A stretch of DNA of 51,863 nt from Betaproteobacteria bacterium HGW-Betaproteobacteria-12. GTDB lineage: Bacteria > Pseudomonadota > Gammaproteobacteria > Burkholderiales > Rhodocyclaceae. A program made the position numbers and the translations under genes. Below, in pieces: positions 5,801-21,080 of this stretch. The stretch lies in the NCBI GenBank assembly GCA_002842345.1, contig PHCU01000024.1, positions 1 through 51,863 of the forward strand. Reading direction: 5' to 3'. The first letter of the stretch is position 1. Each line of letters opens with the position of its first letter. Under the pieces are notes generated by a model. That model saw only the letters and a list, made by a program, of their open reading frames with translations, had not been told where the DNA came from and did not search any database.

Positions 5801-6641
5801 GGCCGCCGTCGATATCCTGGCCGGAATCGAAACCCTGCTCGGGCGGGCGGTGCCGTTGTTCCAGCTGACCGAGCATCCGACTGTCGAGCAGCTGGCCACC
5901 GTGCTCGCCGGCGGCGAACGCGCCGGCGGCAAGGAGGTCGTCCTGTCGCTGAGCCGGCAACAGGGGCGGCTACCGCTGTATCTGGCAGCTTCCGGCCATG
6001 GCGACCTGATCCGCTTCCGGCAACTTGCCGATGCCCTGGGCGACAGTTGCGAAGTGTTCATGCTGCAACCGCCGACGGGCAGCGCCGTTACCCGCATCGA
6101 CGACCTGGCCGCCGAATATGCCCGACATATCGTCGACATCGGCCGGCCAGGCTTGCTGGCGGGTTTTTCCGTCGGTGGCATCACGGCGCTGGAAACGGTA
6201 CGCCAGTTGCGCGCCGCTGGCTTCCCCGTGCCCCAGCTATGCCTGATCGATGCCGTCTATCCAGGCAGTATGCTGCGTAGCGCGGTGTTCTGGCGGGTTC
6301 TCGGCTGGGCGGCCCGCCACCTGCATGCCCAGGAGTTGAGCCTGAACGGTCGCCATCTCGGCGCACTGTTCAGCGATCAGGGGCTGTTGGCCCAGATCCG
6401 GGCCATCGCCAGCTATCAGCCCGAGCCGTGGGTGGGGGACGTCAGCCTGATCAAGTCCTCCGGGCTGCTGCGTTGGGACCGTTGGGCCTTCAAACCCTGG
6501 CGCAAACTGATGGGGCCGGCGCTGCAGGAATACGCGGTGCCCGGGCTACATGGTTCGGTTTTCGAAGCTGCCAATATCGGCGAACTGGCACAGGCGCTGC
6601 GCAGCTGCCTCGGTGCTTGTTCCCCGGAGGGCGCTTCGTGA
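2796..6641 (+). CDS. Single-module non-ribosomal peptide synthetase (C-A-PCP-TE)
   Basis: The open frame runs upstream inside the patatin gene, but homology begins at the ATG at 2796, giving 1281 aa. The domains in order are condensation (~1-430, HHLVMDG near 141), adenylation (~465-960, YTSGSTGRPKG near 613), carrier protein (GGDSL, phosphopantetheine serine near 1001) and thioesterase (GFSVGG, nucleophile serine near 1125). With a condensation domain first and a thioesterase last, the enzyme could acylate one amino acid and release it alone; this is inference. The adenylation pocket keeps the Asp that binds the alpha-amino group (FDPALIEL). My hand-read ten-residue code, roughly D-P-I-A-A-C-V-I-F-K, matches none I know, so the substrate is unknown. 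It sits between a phospholipase and a VTT protein with both ends overlapping, which points to a lipid-linked product. Confidence 0.93.
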   Translation: MELSVPPSVSTAVLPLSLSQQEVWMDQRAWPGSTHLNIGGAGFIDGPFDLERFRQALALLVAESQALRLVPLAEGGQRLLASWLPELEMVDVSAADDPRAAMHAWWQSRIVEPFPFDGRPPWRFALLRYSDTLHGLSIQFHHLVMDGWGTSRVMQRWAELYNALTDRCPVVATNGPDYLAFITESLEYRDSAAFARDAAFWTEQLPQLPPPLFERRHGVAAGGILPPAHLHSTPWPRADYGRLQQAAARSGTNVFALLIAVFAAYLARACSRHQVVIGLPSLNRGGKRYRDTLGMFVGVFPLVVTVEPGQSFAQLLAAVTADLKQAVRHQRYPLSELARRLELIRHRRDSLFDVLFSFERQDYDLHFGAGRSFGARQTFSGLARYPLGITLCEFQAGQDVELNLEASPAFFRAPELAWLGRRLISLAVAMGEAPAQAIEEFPLCSPDELAALERLAGTALPAAAASATYVGQFRRQAAATPAATALVWDGGALDYAGLDAWSDSLAGQLRQLGAARDTVVAIAIERSPAMVAALLAIGKAGAAFLPLDPDAPLARLESILEDAAAIALVIQLASAGRYASLPIRCFAVPPADAIPGESSPLPLPAGDDLAYVLYTSGSTGRPKGVMVGHRALAARLAAIAALFEVQPTDRSGQATQLAFDPALIELLVPLTHGASVALAPPGRLAPGALGPFALRHQVTMMALVPSTLLGLLDSLPRQQATALRIACCGGEVLAPELVRRFHEQTAARLLNVYGPTEAIIFATAWVCPPRLADSALPIGYAIGGTRIRILDERGRPLPFGLAGEICIGGAALAEGYLNRSTATQQAFIADPLLAGERLYRSGDIGWLATDGLLHFVGRRDRQVKLRGYRVELGEIETLLLAGEGVRQAAVKLVNGSGRPALHAWVAGPPPLAIDRLRRHLAARLPDYMLPAGFSCLPELPLGATGKIAYDLLPEPAPAAGEIASRPPSGHLERSLLALWRLALKNEKLGVTDNFFAVGGDSLAAVDILAGIETLLGRAVPLFQLTEHPTVEQLATVLAGGERAGGKEVVLSLSRQQGRLPLYLAASGHGDLIRFRQLADALGDSCEVFMLQPPTGSAVTRIDDLAAEYARHIVDIGRPGLLAGFSVGGITALETVRQLRAAGFPVPQLCLIDAVYPGSMLRSAVFWRVLGWAARHLHAQELSLNGRHLGALFSDQGLLAQIRAIASYQPEPWVGDVSLIKSSGLLRWDRWAFKPWRKLMGPALQEYAVPGLHGSVFEAANIGELAQALRSCLGACSPEGAS

Positions 6642-7228
6642 CGGCAGGGGAGGTCAGCGCGCTGCGTCGGCGCGCCCTGATTCTCGTTCTGCTGCTGATT
6701 GGCCTGGGCGGGCTCGCCGTGTTCTGGAAAATCCATGCTCCGTCCGATGTCGCGGGTTTCACTGCCCTGTTGTCGGAGCTGCGCCTGAGTGCCGGCGAAC
6801 TGCCGGTCTGGGCGGCCGTCGGCTGCATCCTGCTGGCCAGCGTCGCGGCGGTTCCACTGGGCGCCATCATTGTCGTCAGCGCGCTACTTTTCGGCCCCTG
6901 GCTGGCGACTGCCTATATCCTGACCGGCGCAACGCTGGGCGGGGCGATTAGCTATGCCATCGGCGACTATCTCGGCCATCGCGGCCTTGAGCGTTTCGCC
7001 GGCGAGCGCATCAATCGCGTCAGCCGTCGCCTGGCCGAGCGCGGTGTACTGTCGGTTGTCATCATCCGCCTGCTGCCCATCGCGCCTTTCGCCATCGTTA
7101 ACATGATCGCCGGCGCCTCGCATCTGCGGGGCCGTGATTTCATTCTGGGTACGCTGCTTGGGATGCTTCCGGGCACGCTGGTCATCAGCTTCTTGATCAC
7201 CCGAATGCATTATTGGCTGCTTGGCTGA
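6638..7228 (+). CDS. VTT/TVP38-type (DedA-like) membrane protein
   Basis: This 196-aa protein is probably integral to the inner membrane. The GTG start overlaps the NRPS stop and is preceded by CCGGAGGG at the right spacing; upstream in-frame starts would lie inside the NRPS gene. There is an N-terminal membrane segment, then several hydrophobic stretches, and the family motif RLLPIAPFAIVNMIAGAS near residues 145-165. VTT/SNARE-associated proteins of this family have been linked to lipid scrambling or undecaprenyl-phosphate and phospholipid translocation. In this operon it could move the NRPS or phospholipase product across the membrane, which is inference. It is the last gene of the galE block, and the next gene converges on it 30 bases further on. 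I see no obvious terminator in that gap. Confidence 0.88.
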   Translation: MTAGEVSALRRRALILVLLLIGLGGLAVFWKIHAPSDVAGFTALLSELRLSAGELPVWAAVGCILLASVAAVPLGAIIVVSALLFGPWLATAYILTGATLGGAISYAIGDYLGHRGLERFAGERINRVSRRLAERGVLSVVIIRLLPIAPFAIVNMIAGASHLRGRDFILGTLLGMLPGTLVISFLITRMHYWLLG

Positions 7229-7258
7229 GCAATTGGCTGCTATCAACACCCACGCCGA

Positions 7259-8383
7259 TTATTTGTTATCGATCGGGCGTGCTTCGGTGGGGGTAAAGTA
7301 CTCTTCCCTGATGCGTTTTATGCCTTTTCTGATCAGGTGAGGAAGTAGGAGCTTTAGCGGCATGCGAAGGGCATGTCCTCTAAGATAAAGCAACGAACGC
7401 GCTAATGGCGTCAGTGCATCATTGCACGAGGGATGGTCTGGTAAGAGACCTCTTAGAAACAGTTGGTCGTCGATCAGTGTGCTGAATCGACTATGGCCAT
7501 TCCGGTATATCCGATCAAGTTCTGCAGGGGGCACCGGATAACCCAGAACCAAGTGGACGTAACGCAGTGCGAGACCAAGCGGAGAGACAAGATCCAGTTC
7601 ATTGGCGCGTTGGATCAATGACGGCCAGTCACCATCATCCTGTATCGATTCGGAGAGCAAATCGGCGATGTCGAACAGGTCTCTGAGTCCATGGTCAAAC
7701 TCCCCGTCATGGAAGAGATGTACCGCGCTATGAAGAATCCTGTCGAAGGGGGCAAGTACGTAGGCCCCGGGGAATTCCGGACAGGGTACAGCTGAAGTGA
7801 AGAGCTGGGCCGGATCCAGGCGAAGGCCAGCGGTTAGCGGAACAATCGTGTGGTGAAGGTCGATGACGCTATGCCGACTTATGTGCCGCAACGGTGGAAT
7901 TTCATGCATCCAGCGCCGGTAATACTCATCGTCATAGGCATCGTGCGGTGTACTTGCCCAACCATGCATCATGAGAAGTGTTTCCGCTTCCGAGATGCGT
8001 TCGCGCGGTACCAGCAAATCGATGTCATTGAACAGGCGGCATTGCGCAGGCTTTAGATCTGCAGCTTCGTATGCGGCGCCTTTAAGGAAGATCGGTGTGA
8101 TGCCGCTACCCTCAAAGGCGTCGAGCAGATGATTGATCTCATTTACCGTTGCCTGCCGGAGATGACGTTGCTCCTCGATCGCCGCGTTCAGATGCCGAGT
8201 CACAGCTGCTGGGATACGTTGTAGATGCTCGTCATTCCACAACCCAACCGCTAGGCGGGGAAGCAGTCGCGCACTTCTCGCTTGCCGAATGCAGGTTTCC
8301 CAGTCGATCTCTGAAAAATCGTCCGTATACCTTGCAGTGAGCAGGGTGGGAATCAGCAGACTTTGATTATTCGGCGCGCGCAT
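7259..8383 (-). CDS. Nucleotidyltransferase-family protein of the HPr-rel-A module
   Basis: The protein is about 374 aa. It contains GSGITPIFLKGAAYEA followed by LFNDIDLLVP, the DxD-type signature of the PF14907 nucleotidyltransferase family, near residues 100-135. The remainder is helical, with conserved HHTIVPL and HSAVHLFHDGEF segments. The ATG at 8383 gives the N-terminus I expect for the family; an in-frame ATG at 8416 would add 11 residues. Either start overlaps the kinase gene, so the two are translationally coupled. Related proteins occur next to HprK-like kinases and PqqD-like proteins in exosortase genomes and in some lasso-peptide clusters (PadeN type). The reaction is not established. 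Base composition is lower in GC than in the neighbouring NRPS and protease genes. Confidence 0.85.
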   Translation of the reverse strand: MRAPNNQSLLIPTLLTARYTDDFSEIDWETCIRQARSARLLPRLAVGLWNDEHLQRIPAAVTRHLNAAIEEQRHLRQATVNEINHLLDAFEGSGITPIFLKGAAYEAADLKPAQCRLFNDIDLLVPRERISEAETLLMMHGWASTPHDAYDDEYYRRWMHEIPPLRHISRHSVIDLHHTIVPLTAGLRLDPAQLFTSAVPCPEFPGAYVLAPFDRILHSAVHLFHDGEFDHGLRDLFDIADLLSESIQDDGDWPSLIQRANELDLVSPLGLALRYVHLVLGYPVPPAELDRIYRNGHSRFSTLIDDQLFLRGLLPDHPSCNDALTPLARSLLYLRGHALRMPLKLLLPHLIRKGIKRIREEYFTPTEARPIDNK

Positions 8384-9287
8384 CGTCAAGCATGCCGTCA
8401 ATGCGGCGAATGACATCTTCTAGATCACTGTAGCGAGCGGTGAAACTGTCGGCACGGTTCATCGTTGCGGCGATGGTTTCGAAGCCTCGTTCGCGCAGGA
8501 TGCTGTAGTTGAAGGCATTGTCAATCAGCCGCATGAAGGTGTCCGCTTTTCCAAGGGGCTCCAACTGGGTTGCGGAGTCGGCGGTATAGCATGGAAAGAT
8601 GATCCAGCGCGGCAGGACTGGTTCATCCGTGCGTGCCACGCTGTCTGTCGTTGGTTTCATATGCGCGACCGAGCCCTTGGCGGTATCGTGAATGGGGTCG
8701 GTAATCATCGCGTTTGGCGCGAACTGGCGCAGTACATCAATCGAGCGGTTCTTCAGGCTAATCGGGCGGCCGAGCGGATTGATCATGCCTGATGCTGGAT
8801 CAATCAGGATCAGTTCATCTGAAAGCAGGCGCCATCCCCGATTCATCATTGCTGCACATAAGGTGCTTTTGCCTGAGCCTGAAGGGGCGGGAAGAATCAG
8901 CGCCTGGCCGCTACGTTCCAGGACCGCGCCATGAATGATTAGGAAGCTGTGAGCATGCGAGTAGATGCACCAGTTCATTCCCCATTCCAGCAGGGCAAAT
9001 GCCTGTTGCGCGGCGAGCGGTTTGAATGGCACTGAACCATCGAATTCGAAAACGGATTGCGGCCGTATGATCCGACGTAAACCCTTGGCGTAGCGGATCG
9101 CGATATGGAAATCGGCAAATGTGGCGTTGTCGGCTATGGAAAAGTTCTCGTAGAGCCTTTCAATACCGGCAGCAACTGCCTCAAATGGGCTGCGAAGGGA
9201 GAAAACAAAGGGGCCAGTTCTGAGTCGGAGCCCTTCGCCTTTGAGGCGATCGGCGAGCTCGGCACGGGAAAGGGCATTAACTCTCAC
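8367..9287 (-). CDS. HprK-related kinase A
   Basis: This 306-aa P-loop protein is related to HPr serine kinase. The Walker A motif is PAPSGSGKST near residue 137, followed by LLSDELILID as the likely acidic Walker B-like strand and by GRPISLKNRS. The N-terminal ~100 residues are specific to the family (TIGR04352 as I recall it). There is no HPr or PTS gene nearby, so HPr is an unlikely substrate. Relatives in lasso-peptide clusters phosphorylate the precursor peptide, so a peptide or protein target is plausible here. The gene starts in overlap with the stop of the PqqD-like gene and ends inside the start of the nucleotidyltransferase gene. The fold and kinase class are clear; the substrate is inference. 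Confidence 0.88.
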   Translation of the reverse strand: MRVNALSRAELADRLKGEGLRLRTGPFVFSLRSPFEAVAAGIERLYENFSIADNATFADFHIAIRYAKGLRRIIRPQSVFEFDGSVPFKPLAAQQAFALLEWGMNWCIYSHAHSFLIIHGAVLERSGQALILPAPSGSGKSTLCAAMMNRGWRLLSDELILIDPASGMINPLGRPISLKNRSIDVLRQFAPNAMITDPIHDTAKGSVAHMKPTTDSVARTDEPVLPRWIIFPCYTADSATQLEPLGKADTFMRLIDNAFNYSILRERGFETIAATMNRADSFTARYSDLEDVIRRIDGMLDDARAE

Positions 9288-9574
9288 GAGCGATCAATCA
9301 CAATCAGCCCGAGGTCGTGCAGGGCACCAATGCTCGCTTCCAGTAACGTATCGCGATTGGGGTCATCCCAGCCCAAGCGAGCCATGGCAAGAGACAGTTC
9401 GGGAGGTGCAAGGCCCCCGGTGGCCTCGTCAAGGGCGGCTACTACGAATCCATTCGGGTGTTTTAGCCACAGGGTATCGCCGGACCTACGGTCATACACC
9501 ACTACTTCCCCGCCGTGATGCCACCAGCGGAAATGATGCGAGGAAAGGCGGAGCAACGGCTCGGATACGCTCAA
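9284..9574 (-). CDS. PqqD-like protein, HPr-rel-A system
   Basis: This 96-aa protein belongs to the PqqD-like group, small winged-helix proteins that bind leader peptides (RRE domains) in peptide-modifying systems. The pattern is two N-terminal beta-strand blocks (EVVVYDRRSGDTLWL), then NGFVVAALDEATGG and a C-terminal ALHDLGLIVI strand. The start is a TTG four bases after the stop of the Tat-signal protein gene; I see no strong ribosome site, so coupling to that gene is likely. It overlaps the kinase start at its 3' end. Its place between a secreted protein gene and a kinase suggests that it presents a substrate to the kinase or nucleotidyltransferase; this is inference. Confidence 0.82.
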   Translation of the reverse strand: MSVSEPLLRLSSHHFRWWHHGGEVVVYDRRSGDTLWLKHPNGFVVAALDEATGGLAPPELSLAMARLGWDDPNRDTLLEASIGALHDLGLIVIDRS

Positions 9575-9578
9575 TCGA

Positions 9579-10199
9579 CTAAATGGGATCTACGTATTTG
9601 TCTGTATCCCCATCGTACTTATTGTTAGCCTCTTGAAGCGTGTCCTTTAGTATCGAGAAAGCTGTGCCAGGGTTAGGGGACAAGGCTGCAAGTTGGAACA
9701 TGCTGATCACTTTTTCAGGTGTATAGACGAAACCTTTGCCACTTGGGCTGCTGTTCGGGTAGGCAAATGCGTTTACAAATGCGCCGATAAGGTGCTTTCC
9801 AAGATTACTTGGGTTCTTATCGGATGCTCCCTCTTTCATGATCACTTCGAAAAGTGTCTTACCTGCGTAGAGAACCTGATCCTTGTAGTTGTATGAACCA
9901 AAAATACCCGTAAACGCGGCGGACTTGCTCACACTGGATGGCCAGTCATGGGTTTTCCAGTACCCCGCGGATTTGCCGCAACCGTCGAAGGTATGCTGCC
10001 CGGATAGATTTGCGGAGTCGAGTCCAGAGCGGGTGCATTTGTCACCACCCCAGGCCGAGCGGGAAGCGGCGATGGCAACCATCGCCGAAGCGCCAATACC
10101 CGATTTGATCAGCTTGCGCCGCTTCGACTGGTGGGGCAACGACTGGGATGTCTCTGTGCTGTTCGGAGTGGGGTCGATTTGATTTTGATCTTCAGTCAT
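9579..10199 (-). CDS. Tat-signal secreted protein with GYWKTHDWP motif, candidate substrate of the HPr-rel-A module
   Basis: This 206-aa protein is not a family I can name. The N-terminus is polar, then SKRRKLIKSG precedes a hydrophobic run ending AIAASRSAWG, which looks like a twin-arginine signal, so the mature part should be exported. The mature part has two cysteines (DKCTRSG and DGCGKS) and the segment GYWKTHDWP; GYWK-x-H motifs recur in many secreted bacterial proteins of unknown function. The rest is a helical domain rich in Ser, Asn and Lys. It is the first gene of the operon with the PqqD-like protein, kinase and nucleotidyltransferase, the place where a modified substrate would be expected. 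No PEP-CTERM tail is present; the protein ends in KYVDPI. Function is unknown and the substrate role is inference. Confidence 0.72.
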   Translation of the reverse strand: MTEDQNQIDPTPNSTETSQSLPHQSKRRKLIKSGIGASAMVAIAASRSAWGGDKCTRSGLDSANLSGQHTFDGCGKSAGYWKTHDWPSSVSKSAAFTGIFGSYNYKDQVLYAGKTLFEVIMKEGASDKNPSNLGKHLIGAFVNAFAYPNSSPSGKGFVYTPEKVISMFQLAALSPNPGTAFSILKDTLQEANNKYDGDTDKYVDPI

Positions 10200-10259
10200 G
10201 AGAGTTGCCCGCCAAGATTTGAATGCTAGGTGTCAGTGATTCATCAATGCCGAATTTTC

Positions 10260-10289
10260 AGCATATGACTGTTGATTGATGTTAAGCAA
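10260..10289 (-). promoter_or_regulatory. Possible sigma70 promoter of the HPr-rel-A operon
   Basis: On the minus strand, TTGCTT (10289-10284) and TATGCT (10265-10260) are 18 bases apart, about 60 bases upstream of the Tat-signal protein. Both boxes are weak matches. The 210-base gap 10200-10409 is AT-rich and is the only room for a promoter in front of this four-gene unit. Confidence 0.3.
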
Positions 10290-10409
10290 AAAACGTTCCG
10301 GTATTCTTGTATGTGTTGAAAATCAGTCTTGTATGGTGCTTTGCGTTTTCTGAGGCAGGGATTCTGCCGCATCATCGGTAGCTAGTGTAAGAAAATTCGA
10401 CAGAGCTAC

Positions 10410-11192
10410 CTAGCGCTCAATGTCGCTCGATGTGAATTCTGACACGAGGCGTTTCAGGTAATTGGCCGGAATTGCATAGCTGATACCCGACGGTTGGCTC
10501 AGTGCTGACTCCTTGCTGCCTTTGATGAAGACCATGTTGATGACGCCGATGACCTCGCCGCTGTCGATATCGAAGACCGGGCTGCCGCTGTTGCCGGGGT
10601 AGGCGGTGGCATCGAGCTGGAAGATGTCGAAGGTGCCGCGCTTGATCTGGCGTATCGCCTTTTCATTCAATTGCCGGGCCGTGCCACCCGGTAGTTTGAT
10701 CGGCGTGATCGAGGCCACCATGCCGCGATGGGTGACTGGTGAGAAGCCCAGTGCACCGCCGATGGGGAAGCCGGTGAAGCCGACCAGCTGCCCTTCGCGC
10801 ACCGAATCCGAGTCGCGCAGCTGTAGGGCTGGCAGCGGTGGCCCATCGATGCGCAGGACGGCGAGGTCGTGGTCCGGGTCCCGGTTGAGCAGTCGGGCCG
10901 GCCGCAGTTGCGCGGAGCCGTCGCTGCCGCGTGCCTGGATGACCAGCACAGGGGCGTCCGGCCCCGCTTCTTCGGGCAGGACGTGCGAATTGGTTGCGAC
11001 CAGGTTGCCATTGCCGATGACGAAACCTGTGCCGCGCATAACGAATGGCGGGCTGGCCGTCTTCTGGTAAGTGCCGACGACGACGACCGACGGTTTGACG
11101 CGGGCGATGGTGGCGATCATGTCCGCCGCCAGCGCCGGTAGCGCCAGGCAGGCGGCCAGCAAGCAGGCGGTGGTTGGCAGCAGCGGCTTCAC
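10410..11192 (-). CDS. Secreted trypsin-like serine protease
   Basis: This 260-aa protein has a clear Sec signal peptide (residues 1-22, ending ALAAD). The catalytic triad is visible: His70 in VATNSHV, Asp109 in DHDLAVL and Ser202 in YPGNSGSPVFD. It is therefore an S1C/DegP-like protease domain without PDZ domains. It should act in the periplasm or envelope. The start overlaps the stop of the lytic transglycosylase gene by four bases, so the two are coupled and belong to the prs operon. Targets are unknown; processing of envelope or exported proteins of the exosortase system is a reasonable guess. The frame is intact and the length is normal for a single-domain protease. Confidence 0.9.
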   Translation of the reverse strand: MKPLLPTTACLLAACLALPALAADMIATIARVKPSVVVVGTYQKTASPPFVMRGTGFVIGNGNLVATNSHVLPEEAGPDAPVLVIQARGSDGSAQLRPARLLNRDPDHDLAVLRIDGPPLPALQLRDSDSVREGQLVGFTGFPIGGALGFSPVTHRGMVASITPIKLPGGTARQLNEKAIRQIKRGTFDIFQLDATAYPGNSGSPVFDIDSGEVIGVINMVFIKGSKESALSQPSGISYAIPANYLKRLVSEFTSSDIER

Positions 11193-12079
11193 ATTAACCT
11201 GCGCTTGGTGATTTTTGGCAGGTCGGGTGAGGGGCTGGTGATGGCCGGGTCGAAGGGGTGCTCTTGGCGCTTGAAGATTTCACGGATGCGCCGGACATAG
11301 CCCCGGGTTTCCGGGTAGGGCGGAATGCCGCCATAGCGGTTCACGGTGCCTTCGCCGGCATTGTAGGCAGCGGCAACCAGTTCGACGTCCCCCTTGAAAT
11401 AGGCGAGCAGCCAGCGCAGGTAGGCCAAGCCACCACGGATGTTCTGTTCCGGGTCGAAGGGTTTGCGGACATTGAAGCGTTGGGCCGTTTCCGGGATCAA
11501 TTGCATCAGTCCCTGGGCGTTCTTCGGCGATATGGCACCCGGGTTGAAATTCGATTCGGCACGGATGATGGCCATGACCAGCCGCGGATCAACACCGTAT
11601 TCCGGCGCCAACTTGAGCACCAGATCCATCACCTGGCGATGTTGCGGAAACTCCGTGATGGCGACGTCATGATCTTCGGCGGCGAGCAGGCATTCCGGAG
11701 CCTTTTCGGGCGGCTCGCCAACCTGGCGCAGCATGCGTTCGGCAAGAGCGTCGCCCTGTTTGACGGCCATGCTGAAGAACCAGGCTGCCGTCGCATCGTC
11801 GCGTGCAATGCCGCGGCCGTTGGCGTACATCCAGCCGAGGTTGTACTGGGCGACGACATCACCGAGCCGGGAGGCCTCGCAATAAAGTTGCGCCGCCTTG
11901 TCCGGGTCACGCGGTACGCCATCGCCATGCTCATGTTGGGTGGCTTCAAGGCGCAGGGTGGCCGCTTTCTCCACGTTGGCCGGGTCGGCCAGCACCGGCC
12001 GAACGCAAACGCCAACTGCTAGCAGCGCGCCTAGCGCCCAGGGCAGTGAACGAATGCGATGTCGGCCGGTTCGCGTCAT
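11189..12079 (-). CDS. Lytic transglycosylase with Sel1-like repeats
   Basis: The 296-aa protein begins with a signal peptide (hydrophobic to about residue 31, RPVLADP). Two Sel1-like repeats follow (~45-115, with AAQLYCEASRLGDVVAQYNLG as the clearest). The C-terminal domain (~150-280) is an SLT fold: catalytic Glu175 in IIRAESNFNPGA, then AQGLMQLIPETAQRF and AAYNAGEGTV, all typical family 1 motifs. It should cut peptidoglycan glycan strands, perhaps to make room for an envelope-spanning export machine. It starts nine bases after the UDP-HexNAc dehydrogenase gene and overlaps the protease gene downstream. Transglycosylases often sit beside exopolysaccharide genes, so the context fits. Confidence 0.92.
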   Translation of the reverse strand: MTRTGRHRIRSLPWALGALLAVGVCVRPVLADPANVEKAATLRLEATQHEHGDGVPRDPDKAAQLYCEASRLGDVVAQYNLGWMYANGRGIARDDATAAWFFSMAVKQGDALAERMLRQVGEPPEKAPECLLAAEDHDVAITEFPQHRQVMDLVLKLAPEYGVDPRLVMAIIRAESNFNPGAISPKNAQGLMQLIPETAQRFNVRKPFDPEQNIRGGLAYLRWLLAYFKGDVELVAAAYNAGEGTVNRYGGIPPYPETRGYVRRIREIFKRQEHPFDPAITSPSPDLPKITKRRLM

Positions 12080-12088
12080 CTGGATTCC

Positions 12089-13369
<1,281 letters not shown>

Positions 13370-13452
13370 TTGTTACTCATAATAAATACGTTGCAAACAG
13401 ATTTCTGTTTAGTTGTCGCCAAAGAGGCAGCGACGAATCAATTGACGTGCGC

Positions 13453-16166
13453 TTACAGTTCCTTCTGCATACGGGCGACCTCGGCCTGGCCGGGGAACTT
13501 GTCGCCCAGTTTGGCCAGCGCCTCGAGTTCCTTGCGGGCTGCATCCTTCTTGCCATCGCTGATCAGCACGCGGGCCAGATTGAGCTGAATCAGTGCCGCC
13601 TTCGGCGCGATCTCCATCGATTTGCGCAGTAGCTCGACAGCCTTGGCTGTTTCGCCTTTGTCCGCCAGCAGCATGGCCAGGGTATCCATGAAGGCCGGCT
13701 GGTTGGGAGCCAGCTGATTGGCCTTCTCGGCGTACTCGATGGCCTTCGGCGATTTCAAGCGGCCGGATACCCAGGCCAGATTGTTGAGCACCATCGGATT
13801 GTTCGGCTGCAGCGTCAGCGCAGTCTGATAGTGCTGGGCCGCCACGGCGAATTCCTTGCGCGACGTGGCGACATCGCCCAGATGGAGGCGCAGCGCGATG
13901 TCCTTGGGATGCTCCTTGAGCCAGCTGGTCGCGCTACGTTCAGCTTCGGTCGCATTACCCGAGGCGAGCAGCGCGGAATGCAGCTTGACCGCCAGTTCCG
14001 GTGAAGGCGCCAGTTTCATCCCGTTGCGATAGGCAGCGATGGCCTCCGGCCAGGCCTTGCCCGTGCCATGAATGTCGCCTTCGAGCACGAAACCCGCCGC
14101 TTCCTTGGGGCGCTGCTTCTGTACCTGGCGGGCCATGTCGACGGCCTCCCTGGTCTTGCCTGCCTCCATGTGCATCAGGATCTGGGCACGCTGGGCATCA
14201 AGCAGATCCGGTTTGATTTCGAGCGCTTTCCGGACGCTTTTCGCCGCTTCATCGCGGTTCTTGTTTGCCATATGGACTTCGGCCAGACGCATGTGCGCGA
14301 GCGGCGACAGTGGCTGCATCGCGGCCAGCTTGCCGAAAGTGCTCAGGGCCTGGTTCAGCTCGCCCGCGGCATGCTGCGCGCGACCGAGGGCATCGAGAAG
14401 CTCCGGCTTGTCCGGCAGCGCTGCGACGGCTTCATTGGCAGCCGTCAGGGCCTTCTTCTGATCCTTCGCCTGCAAGTGATACTGGATCAATGCCAGGCGG
14501 GGCGCGATTTCTTCCGGGTTGGCCGAAATCGCCTTGCCGATCAGCCCGCTGACCTCGTCGGCAGAACCGCCGCTATTCGCCCGCAGCTCGGCCAGCGCCA
14601 GCAGCGCCTGGATGTTTTTCGGATCGACCGCCAGCACATTGTCGAAGCGCTTGCGGGCATCTTCAGGCTTCTTGTCGGCCAGATCGAGGGTGGCGAGGCT
14701 GGCGGCAGCCGGGAAGAAGGTCGGGCTGAGGGCCAGTGCCTTTTCGAAACTGGTGCGCGCACCGGCAATGTCGCGTTTGCCAAGCAGCGTGCGGGCGCGC
14801 AAATTGTGCGGAGCGGGATTGTCCGGCTGTTTCTTTTCCAGACTGTCGATGGCCTTCAGCGCCTTGTCGATCTGTCCGGTTTGCAGGTAAGCGGAAACCA
14901 GGGCGAGGTCGGCCGTGGTGCCGGTATCGGCTTCCGCGATCTGCTCGAGTTCGGCCAGGGCACCGGTATTGCCCTGGGCCAGATGGGCGATGGCCAGCGA
15001 AGTCTTGCGCGCCGTGCTGTCCGGGTCGAGCTTGCTCGCCTTGGTGAAGTACTCCGTAGCTTTTTTGGGGTCGCCGTTCTGCAGGTAGGTTTCACCCGCT
15101 AGGGAAAGCAGCGTCGGGTCGGTGTCGATCTTGTTGATGACCGGTTGCAGTGCGGACAGTGCCTTGGCCGGTTGCCCCGAGCGCAGGTAGGTGGAAACCA
15201 GCAGGCGGCGGGCCAGCGGGAGCTCGGGAGCTTTCTGCAAGGCCTTGCCCAGATAGGCTTCGGCCTGGATCAGCGAGCGCAACTGGAATTCGACGGCGCC
15301 GGCCAACTGCAGGGCATTGGGATTGTCCGGGGAACTCTTCAGCAACTGCTGCACCAGTTCGCGCGCTGCCTTGAAGTCCTTGCGCTGATAGGCGCCCTGG
15401 GCATCGAAATAGACGGTTTGCGGATGCTTCGGTGCGACTTTCTTCAGTTCCTCGATCTGCTTGCCGGCCTCGTCGATTTTCCGTTGCTGCAACAGCGAGG
15501 CAATGGCTGCCGAGTGGGCCTGCAGATAGTCGGGCTTCGCCGCGATCGCCTCGCGATAGGCGGCCAGTGCACCATCGCGGTTGCCCTTGGCGGCGAGCAA
15601 GGAGCCACTCAGCAGCAAGGCTTCGGGGTTTTTCGGGTGGCTGGCCAGAATCTTGTCGACAATCGCCTGTGCCTCGTCGAACTTGCCGCTACTGGCCCGG
15701 ATGCGGGCATCGCTGATCTGCGCCGGAATATAGTCGGGCTGTGCGGCGAGCGCAGCGGCCAGTTCGGTCGCGGCGATATCGCGCTTGCCCTGGATTATCC
15801 AGGCCGAACTCAGGGCTGTCTTCAAGGCGGCCTTGGCTTCGTTCGAGCCGAGTTCGGTCTGGCCGAACTCGTCGGTCAGTTTCTTCGCCTGCCCGGCCGA
15901 CAGCATGGCCTGGGCGAGCAGGGGGGTGGCCTCGTCAGTGGCGAACTTCAGGTTGAGCGCAAAAGGAAGCGGGCTTCGCCGAGATTCGGGTCGGCTTGCA
16001 GAGCATTCTTCAACTGGATGACCGCCGCCTTGCTGTCGTTCTTGGCCAGGAAATCCTTGCTCGAGGCGATCAGCTGCTCCGGGCTATCGCCGCCGCAGCC
16101 GCCGAGAAAGGCCGCCAGCAGGGCAGTTGAAATCGCGGAGGAAATGATCGAGGTGCGCTTTTTCAT
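13453..16166 (-). pseudogene. prsT: XrtA/PEP-CTERM system TPR-repeat lipoprotein PrsT, apparently frameshifted
   Basis: Two frames together make one PrsT. The first (16166-15948) encodes a lipoprotein signal (FLGGCGGD, lipobox Cys) and the first TPR up to NLGEARFLL, then reads RST and stops. The second is open from before 15906 to 13453 and encodes at least 817 aa of TPR repeats beginning near ALNLKFATDE. Compared with my memory of PrsT, about 20 residues of the first repeat region are missing at the junction near 15955-15965, and the loss is not a multiple of three. PrsT is a large TPR lipoprotein always found with prsK and prsR; its role in export or assembly is not well defined. The remainder looks intact, so this is either a recent deletion or an assembly error. 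If real, an exported lipoprotein is not made. Confidence 0.82.
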
Positions 16167-16190: not shown

Positions 16191-17549
16191 CTACTTGAGA
16201 CCGAGGCGATGCAACAGGTCGTAGAGGGTGGGACGGCTGATACCGAGAATTTCGGCGGCGCGTACCAGATTGCCGTTGGCGCGGCCGAGCGCGGTGACCA
16301 CGGCGCCACGTTCGGCATCGTCACGAATCTTGCGCAGATCGATGAATTCCGAGGGGCTTTCGCCATCGGTTTCGAGGCCGATGTCGTCGCGGGTGATCTG
16401 GGCACCATCGGCCATGATCACGGCCCGCTTGATGCAGTTTTCCAGTTCGCGGACGTTGCCTGGCCATGGGTGAGCCTCGATGGCGCGAATGGCATCTTCG
16501 GTCAGGGTCATGCTGCCGCAATTTTGCTCGTTGGCGAAGCGGCGGACGAAGGCGTGGGCGAGCAGCGTCGCATCGCCGTTACGCGCGCGCAGCGGTGGAA
16601 TGTTGATGACGATTTCGGCCAGGCGATAGAACAGATCCTCGCGGAAGCGGCCTTCCTTGATCAGTGTCTTGAGATCCTGATGGGTGGCGCAGACGATGCG
16701 CACATCGACCGGGATTTCCTGGCGGCCGCCCAGGCGCTCGACCACGCGCTCCTGCAGAAAACGCAGTAGCTTGGCCTGCAGCGGGTGGGGCAGGTCGCCG
16801 ATTTCGTCGAGCATCAGCGTACCGCCGTCGGCGCTCTCGATCTTGCCCGGCGTCGTCTTGGCAGCGCCAGTGAAGGCGCCTTTTTCGTAGCCGAACAGTT
16901 CGCTTTCCAGCAGATTGTCGGGAATGGCTGCGCAATTGATGGCAACGAAACGCTCGTTCTTGCGCGGCGATGCCTCGTGCACGCCACGCGCCAGCACTTC
17001 CTTGCCGGTGCCGCTTTCGCCGAGCAGGAGCACGGTGGCGTTGCTGCCGGCGACTTTTTCGACGGTGCGGCAGACACGTAGCATTTCCGGGCTGCGCGTC
17101 AGCAGGCCGGCCAGCGCGTCCGGGTGCTGCGAGGCCTGCAGGCGGCGGTTCTCCTGCTGCAGGTCGTACAGGCGGTAGGCACGCTCGATGGTCAGGGACA
17201 GGAGTTCCGGCTCGAAGGGCTTGGCAAAGAAGTCGTAGGCGCCGAGACCAATGGCGCGCAGCGCATTGGCCCGGTCGTTCTGGCCGGTGAGGACGATGAC
17301 CTTGGTGTCCGGAGCGGCCGAAAGAATCTGTTCGAGCAGACGGAAGCCTTCGGAAACGGAATCGGCATCGGGCGGCAAGCCGAGATCCATGGTGACCACG
17401 GCCGGATGGTGACGGTGAATCTGGCTCAGTGCACTTTCGCGGTCGCCGGCGGTCAGCGTTTCGAACTGGTCGAAGGACCAGCGCAACTGTTTCTGCAGCG
17501 CCGGATCATCCTCGACGATCAACAGGGGGCGCGGTTTTTCCGTAGTCAA
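16191..17549 (-). CDS. prsR: Sigma-54-dependent response regulator PrsR
   Basis: This 452-aa NtrC-type regulator is the partner of PrsK. The receiver domain (~8-125) has the acidic pair ED(D) at 13-15, the phospho-acceptor Asp55 in TMDLGLPP and the conserved Lys in FFAKPFEP. The AAA+ domain has Walker [10 protein letters not shown], the sigma54-contacting GAFTGA loop and Walker [12 protein letters not shown]. The C-terminal Fis-type helix-turn-helix is [17 protein letters not shown]. It should activate sigma54 promoters of PEP-CTERM genes and perhaps of this locus. The start overlaps the prsK stop by four bases; prsT follows after 24 bases. I searched the larger gaps by eye for the GG-N10-GC sigma54 signature and found no convincing site, so its targets are probably outside the window. 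Confidence 0.95.
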
Positions 17550-19654
17550 GCGGATTCCTTTTCACGCAAATCGGATTCGGTGCGAACAGCGAACAACGGG
17601 AGGACGACGGTGATGCGCGTTCCCTTGCCGGGTTCGCTGTCTACCAGCATTTCGCCGCCCAGCTCGCGGATGTATTGCGCGCTCTCATAGGCGCCGATGC
17701 CCATGCCCGCCTGCTTGGTGCTCTGGAAGGGCTTGAACAGACGCTCGCGAATGAATTCCGGGGTCATGCCGTGGCCGGTGTCGCTGACTTCCAGTGCCGC
17801 CCGGTCGCCGCGCCGCTCCAGCGTCACCGCGACGCGGCCGCTCGCGTCGGTGGCATCCAGGGCGTTCTGTACCAGATGGCCGATGACCCGTTCCAGGCGT
17901 TCCACATGGCCGCGCGTCGCCAGTTTTTCATGCAGCTGCAATTCGACGCTCCTCCCTTGGTCCGCCTTTTCCCGGCGGATGCGTTCGATGACGTCGGGAA
18001 GATTAACACCGCAGGCGGTCCCCGGGGGCGTGGCCCCTTCGCGCAACTGCATCATCAGTTGGCGCATGCGTTCGACCGAGTGTTCGACGGTCATCAGCAT
18101 GTCCTGCTGGAACTCCGGATTGTCGCGATGGCGCTCGGCATTCTTCAGCATCAGGGCCAACTGGGTGACGATGTTCTTCAGATCGTGCACGACGAAGGCC
18201 GACATCCGGTTGAAGGCGTCGAACTTGCGCGCCTCGAGCAGGGCTTCGGTGGCCTGCATGTTGGCCAGGAAGCCGGCGGCCTGGCAGGCCGCCGTGCGCA
18301 GCAGGTCGTTGACTTCCCAATTGACATCGATCGGCGTTCGGGCGCTGGCCAGGATGACGAAACCGGTCATCTGGCTGCCAACCATCAAGGGCACGATCAG
18401 CCAGGCATTCGGCAGTGCGGACAGCCAGGGCGGGATTTCCAGTTCGCCGTAGCGCCCCGGGTAGCAGCGGAATTCCTCGAGATTGACTACCCAGCCGCTG
18501 GAAACAAGGAACTCGATCAGCGGCGAATCGGCCGCCTCCTGGGCGTCGCTGACCGGAATGTTCCAACGCGCCGTCTGGCGGTAGCTGTCCTGGCCGGCTT
18601 CGCGCAGCCACAAGCCGCCGGCCGGGCTTTCGACCATCGCCGCCAGGCCTCGGATGACTTGCTGTCCCATGGCCTGCGGCGAATCCTGGGCGGCCAGCGT
18701 ACGCGTGAAGCGCAGCCATTCCTCGCGATAGTCGTAGCGATAGCGGAAGAAATGCTTGCCGACAAGCACCCGCATCTTCGCCCGGACCGAGCCCGAGACA
18801 GTCAGTACGCCGAGCCCGAGCATGGCGGCGAAGATCAGCGCCAGTTGCAGTGCCCGCCCCCAGTCGCCGCCGAAATAGCGTACGTAATAGCCGACCCCGG
18901 CCATGAACAGCAAGTAGAGACCGGCCATCAGCAGCGTCGCCGAGTGGAAGGCGGCGCGCTGCGACAGGCGGATCTTGGTCGTCCAGTCGCGACTGCGCAG
19001 GGTCGCCAGCAGCAGCAGGGGTACCGTCAGCGCATGGACGACACCGCGCACGGCGAAGGCATCCGGGTCGAGGCGGTTGAACATCAGGGCTTCGGAGAAC
19101 ACGTAAATGTCGAAGACCATCTGGCCGGCCAACGCCAGGCACAGCGGCTTGATGTTCCACAGCGAGTCGTCGGCGACGCCGCGGAACAACTGCTCGACCA
19201 GCATCAGGCCGAGGACCGGCATGGCCAGGGCGAGGAGCAACGCCGTCCGCAACCACTGTTCGGCAGCGAGCAGGCCGAAGGCCAGCGATAGTTGCCAGGC
19301 AAGGGCGCCGCCGATACTCAACCAGCAGGCCGGCGTCAGCCAGCCGGGCAGCGGGCTGCGGCTACCGGTACTGGCCGGACGCAGCAGCAGGATCAGGAAG
19401 GCGAACCAGGCGCCATGGCGCAGCACGTCGCTCAGCGACGAGGCAAACAGCAGGACCGGGTGGGCGGCGGCAAAGGATGCCCAGGATATGCCGGTCCACA
19501 GCAGTGAGGCGGCGACGGCCAGGAACATCCAGCGGACGCGTGGGCCGGATTGCAGGGGCGGACCGAGCACCAGCAGATAAGCGGCAAAAAGGGCGTAGGC
19601 CCCCGCGGCAATGCCAAAGCTCCAGACAATCAGTGGTGCCGATGCAGTTTCCAT
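17546..19654 (-). CDS. prsK: XrtA/PEP-CTERM system histidine kinase PrsK
   Basis: The 702-aa protein is a membrane histidine kinase. Residues ~1-300 hold about eight to ten hydrophobic segments. A GAF-like domain follows (~320-460, with WLREAGQDSYRQ and WLIVPLMVGSQMTGFVIL). The H-box VVHDLKNIVTQLALM has its phospho-acceptor His near residue 489. The ATPase domain shows NALDATDASG (N-box), DTGHGM (G1) and MGIGAYESAQYI. The signal sensed is unknown. It phosphorylates PrsR, whose gene overlaps by four bases. The length matches the family. It lies 43 bases downstream of the sugar transferase gene, in the same direction, so the regulators are probably transcribed together with the enzyme that starts glycan synthesis. 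Confidence 0.95.
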   Translation of the reverse strand: METASAPLIVWSFGIAAGAYALFAAYLLVLGPPLQSGPRVRWMFLAVAASLLWTGISWASFAAAHPVLLFASSLSDVLRHGAWFAFLILLLRPASTGSRSPLPGWLTPACWLSIGGALAWQLSLAFGLLAAEQWLRTALLLALAMPVLGLMLVEQLFRGVADDSLWNIKPLCLALAGQMVFDIYVFSEALMFNRLDPDAFAVRGVVHALTVPLLLLATLRSRDWTTKIRLSQRAAFHSATLLMAGLYLLFMAGVGYYVRYFGGDWGRALQLALIFAAMLGLGVLTVSGSVRAKMRVLVGKHFFRYRYDYREEWLRFTRTLAAQDSPQAMGQQVIRGLAAMVESPAGGLWLREAGQDSYRQTARWNIPVSDAQEAADSPLIEFLVSSGWVVNLEEFRCYPGRYGELEIPPWLSALPNAWLIVPLMVGSQMTGFVILASARTPIDVNWEVNDLLRTAACQAAGFLANMQATEALLEARKFDAFNRMSAFVVHDLKNIVTQLALMLKNAERHRDNPEFQQDMLMTVEHSVERMRQLMMQLREGATPPGTACGVNLPDVIERIRREKADQGRSVELQLHEKLATRGHVERLERVIGHLVQNALDATDASGRVAVTLERRGDRAALEVSDTGHGMTPEFIRERLFKPFQSTKQAGMGIGAYESAQYIRELGGEMLVDSEPGKGTRITVVLPLFAVRTESDLREKESA

Positions 19655-19697: not shown

Positions 19698-21080
19698 TTA
19701 TTGGGCACCCTTGCCGGTGAGGACGACACCGACGGTTTCGAAGAGCACCAGGATATCCAGGAACAATGAATGATTCTTGACGTAGTACATGTCGTACTGG
19801 AGTTTTTCGGCCGAATCCTCGACCGTCGAGCCATAGTGGTAGCGCACCTGGGCCCAGCCGGTGACGCCCGGCTTGACGCTGTGGCGCACGGCGTAGAAAG
19901 GGATTTCCTTGGTCAGCTGGTCGACGAAGAAAGGGCGCTCGGGACGCGGGCCGACCAGGCTCATGTCGCCCTTGAGGACGCTGAACAGTTGCGGCAGTTC
20001 GTCGATGCGCAGTTTGCGGATGATCCTGCCGACGCGCGTGACGCGATCGTCCTGCTTGGTGGCCCAGATCGGCTTGCCGTCTTTCTCTGCATCGCGGCGC
20101 ATGCTGCGGAACTTGATGACGTTGAACAGCCGGCCGTTGAGGCCGACGCGCTCCTGGCGATAGAGGATGGGGAAGCCATTCTCGATGACGATGGCCAGCG
20201 CGGCGATGGCCATCATCGGCAAGGCCAGAATGATCAGGATGCTGGCGCAGACGATGTCGAACAGCCGCTTGACCACCGTGCGCAGCGTTCCCTGGCGGAA
20301 GCCGTCGCCGAAAATCAGCCAGCCGGCATACAGCGATTCGAGGCGGATCTGGCCGAGCGTCTGTTCGAAATGGCTGGCCAGGTCGAGCACGCGAATGCCC
20401 TGCAGCTTGCAGTCGAGCAGTTCGCGCAGCGGCATGGCACCGCCGCGGCGCTCGCTGAGGGCGACGACGATCTCGTCGGCCTTGTGGGCCAGGGCAGAGT
20501 CGGTCAGCGAACGCTCGCGTGACAGGACCAGATTGCCGGGAACCGAGGCAACTTCCTCATTGGGCGCGGGATAGAAGCCGACGATCTCGGCTGTCGGGTC
20601 GGATTTGTTCAGCGCCCGCTTGACGGCCAGCGCCTGCGGGCCGGAGCCAAAGACCATGATGCGCCGGGAGAGGAGACTGGCTGCCGCCGGATGGGTCGTC
20701 GTGACCCGGGTGACCAGCATGCCGAAGACGGCGGACATCGCCGAGAGTTGCAGGAATTCCTGGCTGACGCCGGTCAGCGGCAGCAGGGCATAGATACCGT
20801 AGGCGACCGGCACCGCCAGGTAGAGGGAGAGTACGGCCCGGGCACGCGTGTCCATCGGCGTGCGCTGACTCAGGCGCTGGTAGAAACCCAGCCAGGAATT
20901 GATCACCAGCATGGCCGCGGCAAGCAGCGCGGCAAACAGCAGAACCTGCTTGTGATCGACCGGCAGGTCGTTGTCGATCCACATCATGGCGATCACGATG
21001 CCGACCATCACGAAGGAAAAATCGAACAACATCTGGACGACCGAACGCCAGCGCAACCAGTGATTGAATACTCTGATCAT
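19698..21080 (-). CDS. Undecaprenyl-phosphate sugar phosphotransferase, XrtA/PEP-CTERM type (TIGR03013-like)
   Basis: The 460-aa protein starts exopolysaccharide repeat synthesis by moving a sugar phosphate from a UDP-sugar to undecaprenyl phosphate at the inner membrane. It has four or five N-terminal membrane segments, a nucleotide-binding-like central part (RRIMVFGSGPQALAV), a further membrane helix (~275-300) and the catalytic C-terminal bacterial sugar transferase domain: FRSMRRDAEKDG, RKLRIDELPQLFSVLKGDMS and LVGPRPERP, followed by KPGVTGWAQV. This is the PglC/WbaP-type polyprenyl-phosphate transferase fold. It is the first gene of the long minus-strand operon, with a weak GGGA ribosome site. 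The sugar cannot be read from the sequence. The subfamily assignment to the exosortase A system is by resemblance and context. Confidence 0.93.
   Translation of the reverse strand: MIRVFNHWLRWRSVVQMLFDFSFVMVGIVIAMMWIDNDLPVDHKQVLLFAALLAAAMLVINSWLGFYQRLSQRTPMDTRARAVLSLYLAVPVAYGIYALLPLTGVSQEFLQLSAMSAVFGMLVTRVTTTHPAAASLLSRRIMVFGSGPQALAVKRALNKSDPTAEIVGFYPAPNEEVASVPGNLVLSRERSLTDSALAHKADEIVVALSERRGGAMPLRELLDCKLQGIRVLDLASHFEQTLGQIRLESLYAGWLIFGDGFRQGTLRTVVKRLFDIVCASILIILALPMMAIAALAIVIENGFPILYRQERVGLNGRLFNVIKFRSMRRDAEKDGKPIWATKQDDRVTRVGRIIRKLRIDELPQLFSVLKGDMSLVGPRPERPFFVDQLTKEIPFYAVRHSVKPGVTGWAQVRYHYGSTVEDSAEKLQYDMYYVKNHSLFLDILVLFETVGVVLTGKGAQ

Follow-up and report, generated by a model that had tools for sequence, protein, structure and literature searches.

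The lasso-peptide clusters of paeninodin and pseudomycoidin include a kinase and a nucleotidyltransferase as tailoring genes alongside an RRE (B1), the recognition element of ribosomally synthesised and post-translationally modified peptides (RiPPs); PadeK and PsmK phosphorylate a C-terminal serine, and PsmN is needed for the addition of one or two hexoses to the phosphorylated serine, possibly by an indirect route (PMC9266682; this and the other papers cited are drawn upon from portions of their text). The linear polyphosphorylated peptides (LPPs) of Bacillota, described in 2026, rely on a discrete RRE, an HprK-like kinase and a nucleoside triphosphate (NTP) transferase with no macrolactam cyclase; their precursors are 35-200 aa long with a conserved N-terminus and a variable C-terminus, are frequent in capsular polysaccharide loci and are served by a dedicated signal peptidase and an MsbA-like transporter, and serine phosphorylation has been demonstrated, LppK placing several phosphates on one serine (PMC13381572). 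The 'HPr-rel-A system' is comparable through its family names (TIGR04352, TIGR04353); NCBI names the PqqD-like family as part of it and RefSeq applies these names to a Sphingomonas cassette. Genes of the PEP-CTERM/EpsH (XrtA) system are preceded by a 17-nt motif ending in TTTACA, a spacer of 32-92 nt and, 23-221 nt ahead of the start codon, a sigma-54 site (PMC1569441). We analysed a contig of Betaproteobacteria bacterium HGW-Betaproteobacteria-12 (PHCU01000024.1, 51,863 nucleotides, hereafter the window) that encodes a kinase, a nucleotidyltransferase and a PqqD-like protein of these kinds, together with a protein bearing a twin-arginine translocation (Tat) signal.

The four genes form a minus-strand operon in the order Tat protein, PqqD-like protein, kinase, nucleotidyltransferase (10199 to 7259), with a 4-nt gap at the first junction, a 4-nt overlap at the second and a 50-nt overlap at the third; all four lie where an earlier, sequence-only reading of this DNA had placed them. 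The genome has one match for the kinase and one for PF14907, it encodes TatC, and its XrtA exosortase lies on a different contig from the operon. We consider it probable that the operon serves protein-scale tailoring within the XrtA/PEP-CTERM exopolysaccharide programme, the Tat protein being docked, phosphorylated, further decorated and exported. As far as comparative genomics can say, it is a Tat-borne variant, in Pseudomonadota, of the kinase-RRE-nucleotidyltransferase tailoring seen in lasso peptides and LPPs, and its type A form, to which the window belongs, is tied to PEP-CTERM-type regulatory DNA.

The operon resembles the LPP clusters in having the three components together (the RRE by family name and a weak fold match only) and in the lack of a lasso cyclase: none of the scanned proteins from 2262 to 15906 is an asparagine-synthetase-like cyclase, as the sequence-only reading had also noted. 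That reading called the chemistry of the cyclase-free trio undescribed, which no longer holds given the LPPs (PMC13381572). It differs in that neither a signal peptidase I nor an MsbA-like transporter lies within the four genes, the protein instead carrying a Tat signal. Of the LPP precursor motif YxxPxVLxHQxIxFETxxS, the core (Y..P.[VLI]L.HQ) occurs in 0 of 84 partners. Unlike the lasso clusters, the cassette has no cyclase in or beside it and its partner is a Tat protein of approximately 130-290 aa; unlike PEP-CTERM proteins, the window protein bears a Tat signal and no PEP-CTERM signal, although the enhancer box, sigma-54 site and PrsK/PrsR/PrsT locus are of the same kind. New here is an export-tagged protein as partner of the enzymes, for which we recognised no description in open PubMed Central text (closed journals and preprints lay outside the scope), and the main new result is the PEP-CTERM box with its sigma-54-type site. 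RefSeq annotates the adjoining Tat gene as 'hypothetical protein' in the records consulted for Vibrio alfacsensis and for Sphingomonas parapaucimobilis.

The sequence-only reading proposed that the Tat protein is the substrate and asked whether it accompanies HprK-related kinase A in other genomes. Across 398 Pseudomonadota genomes, with the kinase called at the TIGR04352 cut-off, 61 carried the kinase and 58 of those 61 had a Tat partner (window's genome counted). Sixty other kinase loci were fetched, 58 of them with at least 700 nt of upstream sequence (our labels are L for loci and G for genomes). A Tat rule that is homology-free, but was devised after leaders had been viewed, picked out the open reading frame (ORF) directly upstream of the kinase cassette at 50 of these 58 loci, against 175 of 2468 other ORFs of at least 90 aa there, so that the association exceeds chance. 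Hand curation gave 51 of 58, removing a spurious hit at L101 and adding L069 (truncated) and L097 (wrong start); the hit at L095 was on the wrong ORF, the real protein being present. Among the seven loci without an upstream Tat gene, L059 has its partner next door on the opposite strand, L062, L068 and L076 carry theirs on another contig, and for L101 (G214) a Tat protein of type C (see below) is encoded about 160 kb away, while no Tat partner was found for the kinase and nucleotidyltransferase of L061 and L086. Two further loci are cut by contig ends; for G173 the partner is on a different contig and for G189 none was found. A replication with 24 further kinase loci, drawn from 100 relatives of which 36 carry the kinase, gave a Tat partner at 23 of 23, L149 being cut by a contig end: 21 are upstream by the Tat rule, the gene at L153 is interrupted in the assembly, and L164 is rearranged so that its nucleotidyltransferase gene precedes those for the Tat and PqqD-like proteins. 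The absence of co-occurrence that the sequence-only reading had named as refuting was thus not observed.

Searches in other directions agree with this partnership. In each of the 10 loci other than its own found with the Tat protein, and in L042, kinase and nucleotidyltransferase genes adjoin the Tat gene. The 20 best HprK-like loci below the cut-off (skipping a G173 fragment) served as controls, and only one contained a hit to the Tat rule, a spurious 460-aa ORF with no plausible signal, leaving no credible partner, yet a nucleotidyltransferase was in the locus in 14 of the 20; the kinase-nucleotidyltransferase linkage is thus broad and the Tat partner tied to HprK-related kinase A. A profile of the mature part of type B partners, its seed drawn from kinase loci, matched 33 of 398 genomes (9 of them outside the seed), all 33 kinase-positive, and none of the 337 genomes with no kinase above the cut-off; in five non-seed genomes (G022, G081, G125, G137, G173) the kinase locus as fetched has no same-strand copy immediately upstream. 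The type A profile matched 16 genomes, comprising 11 that are kinase-positive, three with larger GYWK-domain proteins and no kinase above the cut-off, and two (G300, G346) that were set aside for stops inside the match. The type C profile, searched in 17 chosen genomes only, recovered two of two known positives and G214, none of 12 genomes with no kinase above the cut-off, and neither of the kinase-positive G268 and G303. Tat and PqqD-like genes occur as a pair on contigs without the kinase in G022 and G125, and as a second copy in G185 (8% contamination), as expected if the PqqD-like protein were a substrate adaptor and the enzymes worked in trans. As far as comparative genomics reaches, the Tat protein is therefore supported as the candidate substrate.

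The partners fall into three types. Type A proteins are 192-287 aa long as called, with C-x-x-S near the mature N-terminus and frequently a GYW motif; type B proteins (158-214 aa, 28 proteins) have [ST]CW-x-S-[FLI] near the C-terminus and type C proteins (129-168 aa, nine proteins) have TC[FY]ASLQ there, counts that hold by construction because the types were sorted by these motifs. L074, L100 and L164 stand outside all types and L088 is loosely type A. Types B and C align over the last eight columns only, at SCWTSF and TCFASL. On the kinase tree the partner types group together, with nine label changes against a shuffled mean of 34.0 (related rows counted as they come).

S58 is found in 23 of 23 proteins of the type A alignment, S62 in 22 and C55 in 21; taking type A and relative proteins together, 35 of 45 contain C-x(2,3)-S-x(2,4)-S. 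RR is present in 23 of 23 type A proteins, the set itself having been chosen by an RR pattern. The window protein gave zero matches to NCBIfam signal models at E 0.1, its Tat signal being called by rule and by reading; its C-terminus, KYDGDTDKYVDPI, is negative for the PEP-CTERM pattern. A structure model from a two-row alignment gave no usable fold (predicted local distance difference test, pLDDT, 32.8). The serines at the mature N-terminus would be our first-choice acceptors in type A, and the C-terminal C-[WFY]-x-S may play this role in B and C. The sequence-only reading asked whether a Tat or GYWK-x-H protein is always adjacent, and we rejected GYWK-x-H as the hallmark of the partner: many partners are without it and it occurs in larger proteins of genomes with no kinase above the cut-off (L135, L136, L137). 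A G-aromatic/other-W motif, sought with a loose pattern, is found in 17 of 23 type A partners and, owing to how the sets were drawn, in neither type B nor type C, and the GYWK-type domain of the window has zero Pfam matches at E 0.01. The larger proteins with GYWK-type domains were noted at 1842-4091 of L135, 2490-3353 of L136 and 3-1262 of L137.

Both enzymes retain conserved active sites. The kinase belongs to the HPr-rel-A system by score (376.1 bits against TIGR04352, cut-off 200), and H119, the P-loop residues 137 and 139-142, D157 and E158 are each present in 70-72 of 72 sequences; its profile matches the HprK structure 1jb1 across the conserved stretch (E 4.4e-05). Set against the His-Lys-Asp-Asp residues of lasso kinases, with residue equivalence presumed, H119, K140 and D157 are conserved and the next residue is E158. 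The nucleotidyltransferase scores 186.4 bits against PF14907 (cut-off 31), with K112, G113, R127, D131, D133, D186 and H188 each in 59 of 59 sequences, and its profile found nothing up to E 1 among solved structures. All 31 aligned PqqD-like members of the cassettes match TIGR04353 at E up to 0.01, T34 being invariant and G32 almost so; the profile also matches the lasso RRE TbiB1 at E 0.35, amid unrelated entries of like score, and a single-sequence model has three strands, three helices and one strand. These results are suggestive, though not proof, that the PqqD-like protein may be an RRE. A P-x-h-h-T sequence considered as a common RRE docking site occurs in 48 of 84 partners and none of nine type C proteins, and was dropped; in that pattern survey the RR was misassigned for at least L045. 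A search for kinase or HPr in the text at hand of two RRE papers (PMC12710340, PMC7470986) was empty.

Regulatory DNA and gene neighbourhood connect the operon with the XrtA system, a link absent from the sequence-only reading. Upstream of the Tat gene, 85 nt separate the PEP-CTERM-type box from the sigma-54-type site and a further 85 nt separate the end of that site from the start codon, so that by sequence the region fits the published layout except for CTTACA in place of TTTACA; a sigma-70 scan of 7100-10500 returned zero sites. A loose pattern finds the box ahead of 20 of the 23 type A genes and of 18 among 20 from relatives (L153, L160 and L164 excluded), whereas 6 of the 218 other ORFs of type A loci have it; the counts for type A genes and relatives are in part fitted, the pattern having been derived from their upstream regions. 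As a more independent check, the strict pattern has nine exact matches in the whole genome and two for a reversed control; of the nine, five precede PEP-CTERM genes (called by pattern), one the gene of a protein whose end is of PVPG type, one the Tat gene and one a large secreted-looking protein, and the last lies inside a coding region at 25286-25302, that of the XrtA-associated acyl-CoA ligase. Sigma-54-type sites precede 12 of 23 type A genes and 6 of 20 relatives, the background being 28 among the 482 other ORFs of type A and type B loci. Similar sites before 12 of 27 type B genes went unused, 10 of the 12 lying inside an upstream same-strand ORF (eight of these of a glycosyltransferase family) and none having a box.

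The window also encodes an XrtA/PEP-CTERM-associated ligase and decarboxylase. Among 71 loci analysed, XrtA glycosyltransferase relatives lie near the cassette at 23, a PrsR-like regulator at 26, an amidotransferase at 18 and PrsT at 14, family names being assigned from one representative each. The amidotransferase near type B is, by its representative, that of the XrtA system, with 863.8 bits against TIGR03108 and 245.9 against a lasso cyclase model whose cut-off is 525. The kinase is present in 25 of 35 genomes with XrtA and 36 of 363 without (odds ratio 22.7, Fisher p 2e-15, kinship uncorrected). Type C cassettes lie instead beside phosphate-uptake and glmU/glmS genes.

The near-exclusive partnership, the clustering of partner type on the kinase tree, the conserved active sites, the regulatory DNA, the XrtA context and the chemistry of the relatives together support tailoring of the Tat protein as the best explanation. 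PrsK-PrsR and sigma-54 would turn the operon on, to judge from the box and the site; such a PEP-CTERM gene depends on RpoN in Aquincola tertiaricarbonis, where floc-deficient mutants map to prsT, epsB2 and prsK (PMC9850573). The Tat protein would be made first, and the PqqD-like protein, acting as an RRE, would bind its N-terminal part and hand it to the kinase, which on the strength of its active site and tested relatives may phosphorylate one or more serines in the cytoplasm. The nucleotidyltransferase would then attach a group to the phosphate, most likely a hexose by the example of PsmN; the nucleotidylation named by the sequence-only reading stays one option, although this closest tested enzyme led to hexose addition (PMC9266682). 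The modified protein, with a signal visible in its sequence, would be exported by Tat, its destination presumably being the extracellular matrix. If this is true, kinase/RRE/nucleotidyltransferase tailoring extends from small peptides to whole Tat-exported proteins, the named HPr-rel-A system gains a substrate and the PrsK/PrsR/sigma-54 programme gains a member without a PEP-CTERM signal; it also bears on why modified peptides often sit in polysaccharide loci, a question left open by the LPP authors in the text consulted (PMC13381572). A bolder and distinctly speculative extension, which we think unlikely, is that the Tat signal also functions as a leader of the RiPP type: the RRE-like protein would bind the signal region, bring the substrate to the kinase and nucleotidyltransferase and keep it from the Tat pore until it is phosphoglycosylated. 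Outside the cell the sugar-phosphate would then prime or anchor exopolysaccharide, so that the floc matrix would contain a bacterial proteophosphoglycan.

Several observations weigh against this account. Lasso kinases are described with Asp-Asp at the place where this kinase reads D157-E158. The PqqD-like protein of the window scores 29.7 bits against TIGR04353, under the cut-off of 35 (model positions 2-73 of 74); the top lasso RRE for its profile, TfuB1 (E 0.018), ranks second behind a myosin light chain; its structure model has a pLDDT of 54.6; and the top five Foldseek matches, all TbiB1 chains, are not significant (E 0.07-0.7, template modelling score 0.31-0.34). None of the 84 partners contains the published lasso RRE motif [YW]xxPx[LVIFA] in its first 80 residues. 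No acceptor residue is common to all three partner types, whose mature parts are unrelated by profile comparison (probabilities under 1%). In G069 and G268 both enzymes are present and no Tat partner was found. A single-sequence search with the Tat protein finds just 11 of 100 relatives though 36 of the 100 carry the kinase, from which it follows that the partners diverge fast. Finally, the box precedes none of 27 type B and none of nine type C genes, so the regulatory link holds for type A.

Among the alternatives, the one that survives best, though improbable in our judgement, makes the Tat protein a precursor only, from which a post-export protease, perhaps the trypsin-like neighbour, frees a small modified peptide; the system would then be an ordinary RiPP with unusual export. 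The trypsin-like gene family is found at 14 of 71 loci, mostly of type A, but was not seen near type B or C cassettes. The C-[WFY]-x-S near the C-terminus of B (28) and C (9), present by construction, recalls the C-terminal serine of paeninodin, yet type A proteins, beside which the protease occurs, are without such an end and have conserved residues well inside the protein (W86, F100 and N143, for example). Decidedly less probable is that the two enzymes have another target, be it a sugar, a lipid carrier or an enzyme of exopolysaccharide synthesis, with the Tat protein a co-regulated matrix component. That all the genes sit within an exopolysaccharide locus would suit this, as would the few loci (L061, L086) with both enzymes and no Tat gene; against it, partners of unrelated mature sequence keep the same position, the type B profile is confined to genomes with the kinase above cut-off, and Tat-PqqD pairs stay joined away from the kinase in G022, G125 and G185. 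Least credible by far is a gate, with reversible modification controlling export or activity instead of lasting decoration, which would draw on the facts that HprK enzymes include kinase/phosphorylases and that some Tat substrates have signal-binding chaperones, but no phosphatase family is prominent among the recurrent neighbours as judged from their representatives.

Coordinates of the features of the operon, its regulatory region and its neighbours are given in Table 1.

Table 1. Features of the tailoring operon and adjoining genes in the window.
Feature	Coordinates	Strand	Evidence
PF14907 nucleotidyltransferase, 385 aa	7259..8416	-	PF14907 186.4 bits
HprK-related kinase A, 306 aa	8367..9287	-	TIGR04352 376.1 bits
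PqqD/RRE-like protein, 96 aa, TTG start	9284..9574	-	TIGR04353 29.7 bits
Tat-signal protein, 206 aa, presumed substrate (type A)	9579..10199	-	ORF
GYWKTH motif, residues 79-84	9948..9965	-	translation; W81 in 21/23 type A
C-x-x-S-G-x-x-S-x-N-x-S segment, mature N-terminus (C55, S58, S62, S66); candidate acceptor serines	10002..10037	-	
Twin-arginine signal, residues 27-51, behind 26-residue N-terminal extension	10047..10121	-	leader KRRKLIKSGIGASAMVAIAASRSAWG
Sigma-54 -24/-12 type site CGGAACGTTTTTTGCT	10285..10300	-	matches 9/11 scored positions, GG and GC both present
PEP-CTERM-type enhancer box TGTCGAATTTTCTTACA, 17 nt	10386..10402	-	exact pattern match
Trypsin-like serine protease, signal-like N-terminus, possible processing enzyme	10410..11192	-	HtrA-type matches
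PrsT, XrtA/PEP-CTERM tetratricopeptide repeat (TPR) protein	13453..15906	-	TIGR02917 855 bits
PrsR, PEP-CTERM-box response regulator	16194..17549	-	TIGR02915 753 bits
PrsK, XrtA/PEP-CTERM histidine kinase	17549..19654	-	TIGR02916 895 bits
XrtA/PEP-CTERM system glycosyltransferase	19701..21080	-	TIGR03013 523 bits

Other genes lie near the cassettes. A Sel1/SLT lytic transglycosylase is a neighbour of type A cassettes at 8 of 71 loci (11189-12079 in the window). A gene of a TPR-sulfotransferase family follows the kinase at 13 of 71 loci (L048, L056, L057, L058, L066, L070, L071, L072, L075, L077, L078, L079, L102), with the nucleotidyltransferase beyond it at eight, which suggests a third tailoring step in type B. 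Many type C cassettes (L091-L101 and L170, the last from Sphingomonas) lie between pst/pho genes and glmU/glmS. On a plasmid of Vibrio alfacsensis (L169, 7920-10987) a Tat-type protein, kinase and nucleotidyltransferase adjoin 2-aminoethylphosphonate genes, and beside the cassette of the window, at 2262-6641, lies a single-module protein resembling nonribosomal peptide synthetases, with condensation, AMP-binding, carrier and thioesterase domains.

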